From Deferrisoma camini S3R1 (GTDB lineage Bacteria > Desulfobacterota > Deferrisomatia > Deferrisomatales > Deferrisomataceae): 64,000 nt of DNA. Made by a program: the position numbers and the translations under genes. This document shows, piece after piece, positions 34,176 through 36,883 of this stretch. The first letter of the stretch is position 1. Every line of letters begins with the position of its first letter. The notes beneath the pieces are model-generated. The model was not told the origin of the DNA. It searched no databases and saw only the letters and a list, made by a program, of their open reading frames with translations. The stretch is taken from contig NZ_JAFN01000001.1 of NCBI RefSeq assembly GCF_000526155.1, forward strand, positions 1,368,501 through 1,432,500, written 5' to 3'.

Positions 34176-34913
34176 ATGGAGACACGGATCCAGGGCGCAG
34201 GGCCGGCGCTCGTGCTGATCCCCGGCCTGGGCTGCGACGACCGTCTGTGGCTTCCGGTGGGGGAGCGTCTGGCCGGGGAGTTCCGGGTGGTGTACCCCAG
34301 CGTGTGGGGCCGCGGGTCCCTGGCTAGGGTGGCCGAGGAACTGGGGGAGGTGCTCGACCGGATCGAGGCGCCCCGGGCCTTCGTGGCCGGGCTGTCCATG
34401 GGCGGCTACATCACCTTCGAGCTCCTTCGGCGCCGGGCCGACCGCATCGCCGCGGCCGCCCTGGTGGACACCACCGCGTTCGGCGACACTCCGGAGCGTC
34501 GGGTCAAGAGGGACCAGGTGCTCGACCTGATCCGGCGGGGCGGGTTCGAACAGGTGCTCGAGACCTTCGCGGCGAGCGTGCTGGCGCCTTACCACCGGGA
34601 GGGCCCGCTCCGGGATCTGGTGGTCGAGATGGGCCGCGCCGTGGGGCCGGAGGCGTTCGCCGCCGACGCGGCCGCCATCCGGGACCGGGGCTCGTACGAG
34701 GACGTGCTGGAGCGGGCGGATCTGCCGCTCCTGTTCGCCGCGGGCGCGGACGACCCGCTCACTCCGCCCGAGGTGGCCGAACGGATGAGCCGCCTGGCTC
34801 GGCAGGGCCGGCACGCCGTGATCCCCCGGGCGGGGCACCTGAGCCCCCTGGAGAACCCCGAGGCCACGGCCCGGGTGCTCGGCGAGTTCTTCGGCCGGGG
34901 GGAGCGGCCGTGA
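34176..34913 (+). CDS. Alpha/beta hydrolase
   Basis: A 245-residue cytosolic enzyme. The nucleophile elbow is AGLSMGG (S74), the acid is probably in AGADDPLTPP (about residue 192) and the catalytic histidine is in RAGHLSPLE (H221). LVLIPGLGCDDRLW (about residues 12-25) forms the oxyanion-hole strand. It is closest to small esterase/carboxylesterase-type hydrolases; the substrate is unknown. Its stop overlaps the GTG of the J-protein gene (GTGA), so these and the zinc-ribbon gene form one operon. Confidence 0.9.
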   Translation: METRIQGAGPALVLIPGLGCDDRLWLPVGERLAGEFRVVYPSVWGRGSLARVAEELGEVLDRIEAPRAFVAGLSMGGYITFELLRRRADRIAAAALVDTTAFGDTPERRVKRDQVLDLIRRGGFEQVLETFAASVLAPYHREGPLRDLVVEMGRAVGPEAFAADAAAIRDRGSYEDVLERADLPLLFAAGADDPLTPPEVAERMSRLARQGRHAVIPRAGHLSPLENPEATARVLGEFFGRGERP

Positions 34914-35686
34914 AGGATTACTACGCGGTCCTGGGGGTCTCGCCCGAGGCCACCGCCGAGGAGATCCGAAGGGCCTACCGCCGCAGGGCGTTCGAGCTGC
35001 ACCCGGACCGCAACGGCGGCAGCCCCGAGGCAGAGGAGGCGTTCAAGGAGCTCACCGAGGCCTATGCGGTGCTCGCCGACCCGACCCGCCGCCGAAGCTA
35101 CGACGCGGCCCGGGCCGGCCGGCCGACACCGGGCGGAGCCGACTTCCGCCCCGAGGACCTCTTCGCCGACCTGTTCCGGCACCCGGTGTTCGGGGCGTTC
35201 CTGCGGCAGATGGCCGAGGAGTTCCGGCGCCAGGGCCTCCGGTTCGACGAAGGGTACCTCCGCAGGGTGTTCCACGCGCCCGGCGGCGGGGTGTTCTTCG
35301 GCGGGTTCGTGTTCGTGGGGCCCCTGGGCGGCTGGTTCCGTGCCTTCGAGCGGGCCCCACGGAGGTTCCCGGGCCCGCACAGCCGGGCCAGGGCGCTTCC
35401 CAAGCGGCCCGGGGTGCTGGGTCGGATCCTCCGGAAGGCCCTTCCCCGGCCGGCCTCCCCCGGCCCGGTGGAGTACCGGCTTCCGGTGCCCCCCGAGGTG
35501 CGGCGTGCCGGCGGAACCGTGGAGGTGGCCGTGCCGGGCCCCCGGGGCATGGAGCGGCTTCGGGTGCGCATCCCGGCCGGAGCCCGGCCGGGCCTGAGGC
35601 TGCGCATCCGGGGCAAGGGCCCCGGCAAGGCCGGAGCCCGAGGCGACCTCCTCCTGAAGATCTCGGACCCCCCTTCCCCCTGCTGA
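34910..35686 (+). CDS. J-domain co-chaperone lacking a zinc finger (CbpA/DnaJ-like)
   Basis: A 258-residue protein. The J domain (residues 3-68) has the HPD motif at 31-33 that stimulates DnaK. A short glycine/phenylalanine-rich stretch (about 118-143, GGGVFFGGFVFVGPLGGWF) follows a linker, and residues about 185-255 form a single beta-rich client-binding domain (RVRIPAGARPGLRLRIRGKG). There is no cysteine zinc finger, so it is a shortened type-II-like DnaJ. The GTG overlaps the hydrolase stop. The next gene encodes a tandem zinc-ribbon protein, which could supply a client or a trans-acting zinc module; that is speculation. Confidence 0.88.
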   Translation: MKDYYAVLGVSPEATAEEIRRAYRRRAFELHPDRNGGSPEAEEAFKELTEAYAVLADPTRRRSYDAARAGRPTPGGADFRPEDLFADLFRHPVFGAFLRQMAEEFRRQGLRFDEGYLRRVFHAPGGGVFFGGFVFVGPLGGWFRAFERAPRRFPGPHSRARALPKRPGVLGRILRKALPRPASPGPVEYRLPVPPEVRRAGGTVEVAVPGPRGMERLRVRIPAGARPGLRLRIRGKGPGKAGARGDLLLKISDPPSPC

Positions 35687-35698
35687 AGGACAGGTCCC

Positions 35699-36883
35699 AT
35701 GCGCATCTCGCTCACCGCTGCCGTGCAGCCCCGCGAGGTTCCGTGCCGGGTTCCGGGGTGCCGGAACACCTGGACCCAGACCGCGGAGGACATCCTCCAC
35801 GCCCTCCGCCGGGGGCAGAGGGAGCCGCCCAAACGCATGTGCGCCCGGTGCGAGGCCCTGTACCGGGACATCACCGAGCAGGAGGTTCCCTGCGAGCGGC
35901 CTGGGTGCGGGGGAACGGTCCGGCTGGGCCGGTTCCAGCAGCTGGTGTGGCAGGTGCGGGGCCGTCGGCCCCGGGAGCTCCTGTGCGAGGAGTGCCGGTC
36001 CGAGGCCGCGGCCCAGGATGCGGTGGAGGTGCCCTGCCGGGTCCCTGGGTGCTCGGGCCGGTGGCTGTGGAAGCCGGAGGAGCGCCTCGCCTGGGGTAGG
36101 GACAAGCCGCCGGCCCGCATGTGCCCGGACTGCTACCGCACCTACCGGGAGCTGGAGGACGTGCCCCGGCCGTGCAAGGTCCCCGGGTGCTCGGCCACGG
36201 TGGTGTACCGGCGATTCGACCAGCTGGCGGACCGCAAGGCCGGCCGGCGGCCTCCCCAGCGCATGTGCCCGTCGTGTGCCGAGCGGCTGCGGGAGCTCCA
36301 AGACCGGCCGGTCCCGTGCTCCGTGCGCGGATGCGACGGCACCTGGACCTGGACCCGGTTCTCCCAGCTCGCCGCCGAGAGGAGGGGGCTCGGTCCCGAG
36401 CCCCCGCGCCGGCGCTGCGCCCGGTGCCAGGAGGAGCTCCAACGGCTCCAGGACCGCACCATGCCGTGCCGGGTGAACGCGTGTGACGGCACCTGGGTGT
36501 ACACCGCGGTCCAACAGCTCTCGGACCTGCGCCGCGGCCGCAAGCCGCCCCGGCGGCTGTGCCCCGATTGCCTGGAGCGGGTGAACAGCCTGGAGGATCG
36601 TGAGGTGCCCTGCCGGCAGGAGGGGTGCGACGGCACCTGGACCTTCACGCGGTTCGACCAACTCCTCCACGAGCGCACGGGCCGGCCCCAGCCCCGAAGG
36701 CTGTGCGCCCGGTGCGAGGCCTTCCTGAAGGACCACCCCCCCGTGGACGTGCCGTGCCGGATCTGCGGTACGCCGATGCTCTGGACCAGCGAGGCCCAGC
36801 TCATGGCCGAGCTGGGCCTGTGGGTGAAACCCGACCTGTGCGGGGAGTGCAAGGCTCGGGAGGTCCGGCAGGGCGCCGGATAG
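35699..36883 (+). CDS. Tandem zinc-ribbon protein, eight repeats
   Basis: A 394-residue protein made almost entirely of eight repeats of about 45-50 residues. Each begins with PCxxxxC followed by a short W-rich strand (as in CDGTWTWTRFSQL), a basic loop with RRGxxPPRR, and a CxxC pair (MCARC, LCEEC, MCPDC, MCPSC, RCARC, LCPDC, LCARC, LCGEC). The last repeat has PCRICG instead of PCxxxxC. The four cysteines per unit suggest one zinc each, eight in all. I do not recognise a described family with this number of units. It lies 12 bases after the J-protein, with GGACAGG upstream, and is in that operon. Confidence 0.8.
   Translation: MRISLTAAVQPREVPCRVPGCRNTWTQTAEDILHALRRGQREPPKRMCARCEALYRDITEQEVPCERPGCGGTVRLGRFQQLVWQVRGRRPRELLCEECRSEAAAQDAVEVPCRVPGCSGRWLWKPEERLAWGRDKPPARMCPDCYRTYRELEDVPRPCKVPGCSATVVYRRFDQLADRKAGRRPPQRMCPSCAERLRELQDRPVPCSVRGCDGTWTWTRFSQLAAERRGLGPEPPRRRCARCQEELQRLQDRTMPCRVNACDGTWVYTAVQQLSDLRRGRKPPRRLCPDCLERVNSLEDREVPCRQEGCDGTWTFTRFDQLLHERTGRPQPRRLCARCEAFLKDHPPVDVPCRICGTPMLWTSEAQLMAELGLWVKPDLCGECKAREVRQGAG

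Follow-up and report, generated by a model that had tools for sequence, protein, structure and literature searches.

An undescribed family of tandem four-cysteine proteins in Myxococcota and beside a finger-less J-protein gene in Deferrisoma camini

The window, a 64,000-nucleotide stretch of DNA from Deferrisoma camini, contains three tightly spaced genes on the positive strand. The first, at 34176 to 34913, encodes a PcaD-like alpha/beta hydrolase that matched Abhydrolase_6 with an E value of 1.8e-14 and TIGR02427 with an E value of 3.4e-33, the latter below the cut-off of that model. Its end overlaps by 4 bases the start of the second gene (34910 to 35686), which begins with GTG and encodes a class B-like J-protein of 258 aa with a J domain (DnaJ, E = 8.8e-26; HPD at residue 31) and one partial DnaJ_C domain (E = 2.5e-6). 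The third gene, referred to here as the zinc gene, follows on the same strand at 35699 to 36883, begins with ATG, and encodes a 394-aa protein composed of tandem four-cysteine units predicted to bind zinc, eight units and 32 cysteines in all. The original prediction of a J-protein lacking the DnaJ zinc finger 12 bases from the zinc gene was accurate, as the J-protein has a single cysteine and no CxxCxGxG motif.

The units, all on the positive strand, lie at 35735 to 35881 (unit 1, PCx4C...CxxC), 35882 to 36025 (unit 2), 36026 to 36163 (unit 3), 36164 to 36307 (unit 4), 36308 to 36457 (unit 5), 36458 to 36601 (unit 6), 36602 to 36745 (unit 7), and 36746 to 36868 (unit 8, CxxC...CxxC, zf_Tbcl-like). 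In the protein, they start at residues 13, 62, 110, 156, 204, 254, 302, and 350, respectively, and comprise 45 to 50 residues with four cysteines apiece, so that all 32 cysteines lie inside units. The second cysteine pair is CxxC throughout, and the knuckle is PCx4C in units 1 to 7 and PCxxC in unit 8. Thus, the eightfold architecture that had been proposed was confirmed, and the proposed repeat, PCxxxxC...CxxC, describes the first seven units and not the eighth.

This architecture is conserved. In 38 complete eight-unit proteins from four lineages, 30 of the 32 cysteine columns were invariant, and the remaining two were occupied by cysteine in 36 and 37 of the proteins; the eight-unit pattern is therefore not due to chance. 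The consensus of units 1 to 7, compiled from 225 unit copies, is VPCRxxGCxxTWTWxRxxQLxAxxxGKxxPPxRMCxxCxxxFxxLxDR, with W14 found in 91%, Q22 in 81%, and the arginine preceding the second CxxC in 69% of them. The tryptophan, glutamine, proline, and arginine residues located between the near-invariant cysteines were likewise conserved across units, as expected of a module that folds and not of one that simply stores metal in a loose chain. Among three congeners, the dN/dS of the zinc gene was 0.07 to 0.27, and values for neighboring genes were similar.

An AlphaFold2 model built from eight aligned sequences had a mean pLDDT of 87.0 for the whole zinc protein. In this model, every unit consists of two strands and a helix followed by a loop and then a second helix, which begins at the second CxxC. 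This layout agrees with the one described for treble clefs (PMC4999995), and the predicted secondary structure was consistent with a treble clef in all eight units. The pTM of the whole protein was 0.47, which leaves the placement of the units relative to one another unsettled; units 5 and 6 modeled alone yielded a pLDDT of 93.5 and a pTM of 0.73. Fold searches of the PDB with Foldseek, using the whole model and the two-unit model, returned no significant match, whether to a treble clef or to any other fold. The best PDB row for the two-unit model, HPV E7 CR3, had a Z score of only 2.4 and was rejected as not meaningful. A viral structure library produced weak matches annotated as putative zinc-ribbon, HNH, and treble clef proteins, with a one-unit rmsd of 1.9 A.

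No model in Pfam, NCBIfam, PHROGs, or PADLOC and no PDB sequence covered the zinc protein, plasmids and viral contigs contained no relative of it, and the literature search found no description of the family. These results agree with the original prediction, which recognized no described family. The closest approach to a known family was found when profile searches were run unit by unit: unit 8 alone matched PF13451 (zf_Tbcl) with an E value of 6.8e-4 and 20 bits, below the 24-bit gathering cut-off. The whole protein scored 13.5 bits against the same cut-off, and units 1, 6, and 7 scanned singly did not match PF13451. The CxxC...CxxC ligand spacing of zf_Tbcl is found only in unit 8, the other seven being Cx4C. 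In profile comparisons, for which the PF13451 profile was built from four sequences, unit 8 aligned with PF13451 at a probability of 92%, and units 1 to 7 reached 94% with unit 8 and 34% with PF13451. Thus, the tie to a known family runs through unit 8, and units 1 to 7 are diverged relatives at most. The module of the zinc protein is of a known kind, but the family that it builds has not been described.

We then evaluated the distribution of this family in a genome search that sampled two phyla. The phylum-wide searches scored four candidates per genome, and the presence counts are lower bounds. In the phylum of the window, the zinc gene was found in at least 3 of 395 sampled genomes, all from one genus and 94% identical. 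A single-protein scan of genome contigs revealed full-length relatives with 30 to 42% identity in Myxococcota assemblies. Full-length eight-unit homologues were found in 10 of 14, 17 of 18, and 9 of 13 genomes of three myxobacterial orders (A, B, and C), and a six-unit form with about 24 cysteines was found in 24 of 29 genomes of a fourth (order D). Together, 60 of the 74 genomes searched in the four orders carry the family. The six-unit proteins of order D (L107 to L114 and L211 to L225) are diverged and have long disordered N termini, often rich in R and G, and acidic Ala/Ser-rich linkers. Eight-unit genomes carried one copy of the gene, save for G789, which has two (L180 and L181), and G809, whose two matches seem to be the two parts of a single gene that is broken across contigs. 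A 187-aa protein encoded at L115 (7834 to 8394) has zinc units and a disordered tail and is weakly related to the C-terminal units (E = 4e-7).

In an unrooted maximum-likelihood tree, the long branch of the window's genus grouped next to orders B and C and apart from order A, with a support of 99. The simplest reading, which we consider the most likely, is that this genus gained the zinc gene, perhaps by transfer from Myxococcota. When units were compared across lineages, their position was kept in 14 of 24, 72 of 144, 32 of 64, and 37 of 72 cases, as opposed to the 1 in 8 expected by chance. Unit 8 contributes much of this signal, so the comparison gives partial support to an array whose order was fixed long ago.

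The order hydrolase, J-protein, zinc gene was found in all three congeners. The original prediction described the zinc protein as coupled to the J-protein and named absence of linkage in relatives as a refuting result. We ran this check, and linkage was absent outside the genus: a tblastn search with one J-protein query (E value cut-off of 1e-4) of about 580 kb flanking 44 zinc-gene loci of other lineages, several of them on contigs that end near the zinc gene, revealed no relative of the window J-protein, nor was one found at 15 further order D loci. Conversely, relatives of the J-protein occur in the window's order without the zinc gene, and two of those genomes (G005 and G008) carry the hydrolase and J-protein genes as a pair (44 to 48% and 34 to 49% identical). 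This pair of hydrolase and finger-less J-protein genes, conserved in other genomes of the order, lies at L138 (3751 to 5299) and L140 (7450 to 8970). Since the pair exists without the zinc gene in the same order, the zinc gene most likely joined an older pair. Linkage limited to three genomes of one genus amounts to one evolutionary event and does not support coupling as a functional rule. Adjacency to the J-protein does not define the family and arose either by accident within one genus or by recruitment at a late stage. A single genome can thus hint, through adjacency, at a partnership with a chaperone that finds no support in relatives.

These findings also weaken the proposal that the zinc protein supplies, in trans, a replacement for the finger missing from the J-protein. 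Apart from adjacency in one genus, this idea could draw on ZnJ2, a stand-alone DnaJ-type finger protein of chloroplasts (PMC5818400). However, the units lack CxxCxGxG, class B J-proteins without a finger are ordinary (PMC12799103), and the source genome encodes at least two other J-proteins that are class A DnaJ with a full CxxCxGxG finger. Given the missing linkage outside the genus, we regard a finger in trans as highly improbable.

In Myxococcota, the neighborhoods of the zinc gene differed by lineage, and no neighbor gene was common to all of them. In order A, a same-strand gene lies 20 to 160 bases upstream in 8 of 10 loci, and both of those checked encode MtaB-type methylthiotransferases (mtaB). 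In order B, the zinc gene is divergent from the trigger factor gene (tig), which is followed by clpP and clpX, and a NUDIX gene follows. In order C, clpX is found 3.3 to 3.5 kb downstream, beyond a VWA-domain gene in four loci, and the intervening gene is on the opposite strand. The VWA-domain gene has a lipoprotein-like product (L185 6247 to 7968, L136, and L187 to L188). In order D, a cdsA-type gene lies upstream in several loci, its identity having been checked in one. The proximity of clpX in both orders B and C is suggestive, although the arrangements differ. Because the neighbors vary by lineage and include a metal exporter and cdsA, guilt by association is a weak guide here.

The metal exporter in question, ArsP_2, is encoded 76 to 239 bases before the zinc gene in six of eight order C loci. 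It could signify that the protein stores or buffers zinc or another soft metal, about eight ions per chain, as its 32 cysteines would allow. Yet a metal gene adjoins in one order only, and cysteines make up just 8% of the residues, with W, Q, P, and R strongly conserved between them. A metal store thus appears quite unlikely.

The neighborhoods could also reflect a scaffold or adaptor in protein quality control, whose partners would be the J-protein and DnaK in the window's genus and trigger factor or ClpXP in other lineages. The 12-base distance to the preceding J-protein gene in each of the three congeners, the adjoining tig-clpP-clpX cluster of order B, the clpX gene of order C, and the four-cysteine zinc domain of ClpX itself are all in line with such a role. 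However, neither tig-clpP-clpX nor clpX is found beside the zinc gene in orders A and D, the genes are divergent in order B and separated by an opposite-strand gene in order C, and relatives of the J-protein work without the zinc protein. Nor would a scaffold need basic loops or tracts of lysine and arginine. We therefore view this role as possible, if rather unlikely.

Those basic features would suit a binder of nucleic acid. Complete eight-unit proteins from Z and from orders A, B, and C had a pI of 8.2 to 9.4, ORFs with doubtful starts aside. Order B proteins contain runs of five to nine K/R residues inside the loop of unit 7, and order D proteins contain K/R runs of 6 to 14 before a CxxC in addition to their R/G-rich N termini. 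In order D, acidic tails lower the overall pI of several proteins to 5.2 to 6.2, which counts against binding to nucleic acid. RGG enrichment was rejected as direct evidence of RNA binding, as RG dipeptides were clearly above the shuffled expectation only in two or three order D proteins, and the argument is based on the poly-K/R tracts instead. Basic charge, K/R runs, and tryptophan-bearing hairpins together favor nucleic acid binding, one of the options listed in the original prediction and the function best supported by the basic loops and polybasic tracts. Judging from these sequence features, we give roughly even chances that the protein is a nucleic-acid-binding array, probably for RNA or the ribosome. 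The preference for RNA over DNA is weaker and derives from neighbors whose products have tRNA or the ribosome as their site of action, namely, mtaB in order A and tig in order B.

A zinc array that reads or coats DNA, as a regulator or a nucleoid protein, would share the tandem units and the basic charge, and an array of eight would be long enough for an extended site. Such a protein seems unlikely, as it has no sensory or oligomerization domain and no conserved target gene nearby, and its units differ weakly among positions, position identity being about half kept across lineages.

In the likeliest reading, the zinc protein is a stable rod or string of eight small zinc-folded units. Each unit would hold one zinc ion by four cysteines, two in the beta-hairpin knuckle and two at the start of the helix, like a treble-clef finger. 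The unit consensus places a basic loop right before the second CxxC and the tryptophans on the hairpin, and the array could lay these loops and aromatic residues along a nucleic acid, likeliest an RNA (structured RNA, tRNA, or the ribosome). The protein would act as a constitutive housekeeping binder. In the window's genus, its gene would have been inserted behind the hydrolase/J-protein pair and is probably cotranscribed with both.

The unnamed family spans most genomes of four Myxococcota orders, and none of the libraries searched has a curated model that matches it. To our knowledge, few bacterial proteins repeat one zinc module eight times in a fixed array. Binding to RNA or the ribosome, if true, would add a factor of a new type to those associated with translation in this group. 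A broader proposal, which we consider unlikely, gives the protein a housekeeping role in several myxobacterial orders, where it would be nearly universal and present in single copy. Its eight or six zinc modules, in fixed order, would bind ribosomes or tRNA and connect translation with protein quality control; an unrelated genus would later have received the gene and wired it to a J-protein.

Parts of the locus resemble known systems. The J-protein shares with class B J-proteins of the CbpA/Hdj1 type a J domain with HPD, a DnaJ_C domain, and the lack of a zinc finger, which places it in that class, although DnaJ_C was matched only partly, at 72 of 152 positions. The zinc protein resembles the central finger of DnaJ (PF00684, four CxxCxGxG) in its four-cysteine zinc sites and its location near a J-protein gene but differs in predicted fold and spacing, has no CxxCxGxG, and has no Pfam match. 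With zf_Tbcl (PF13451), a probable treble clef of small bacterial proteins, unit 8 shares the spacing CxxCG...W...Q...G...P..C..CR over 39 aligned columns; in related genomes, members of PF13451 contain a single such unit in about 100 to 130 aa, as opposed to eight in the zinc protein. Treble clef fingers, which occur in tandem in LIM and nuclear receptor DNA-binding domains, have in common a knuckle, a hairpin, and a helix start, with two ligands each from the knuckle and the helix start (PMC4999995), a tandem layout that the zinc protein is predicted to resemble. Compared with treble clefs in general, the zinc protein stands out by carrying eight near-identical copies of its unit in one bacterial protein, an arrangement conserved across orders.
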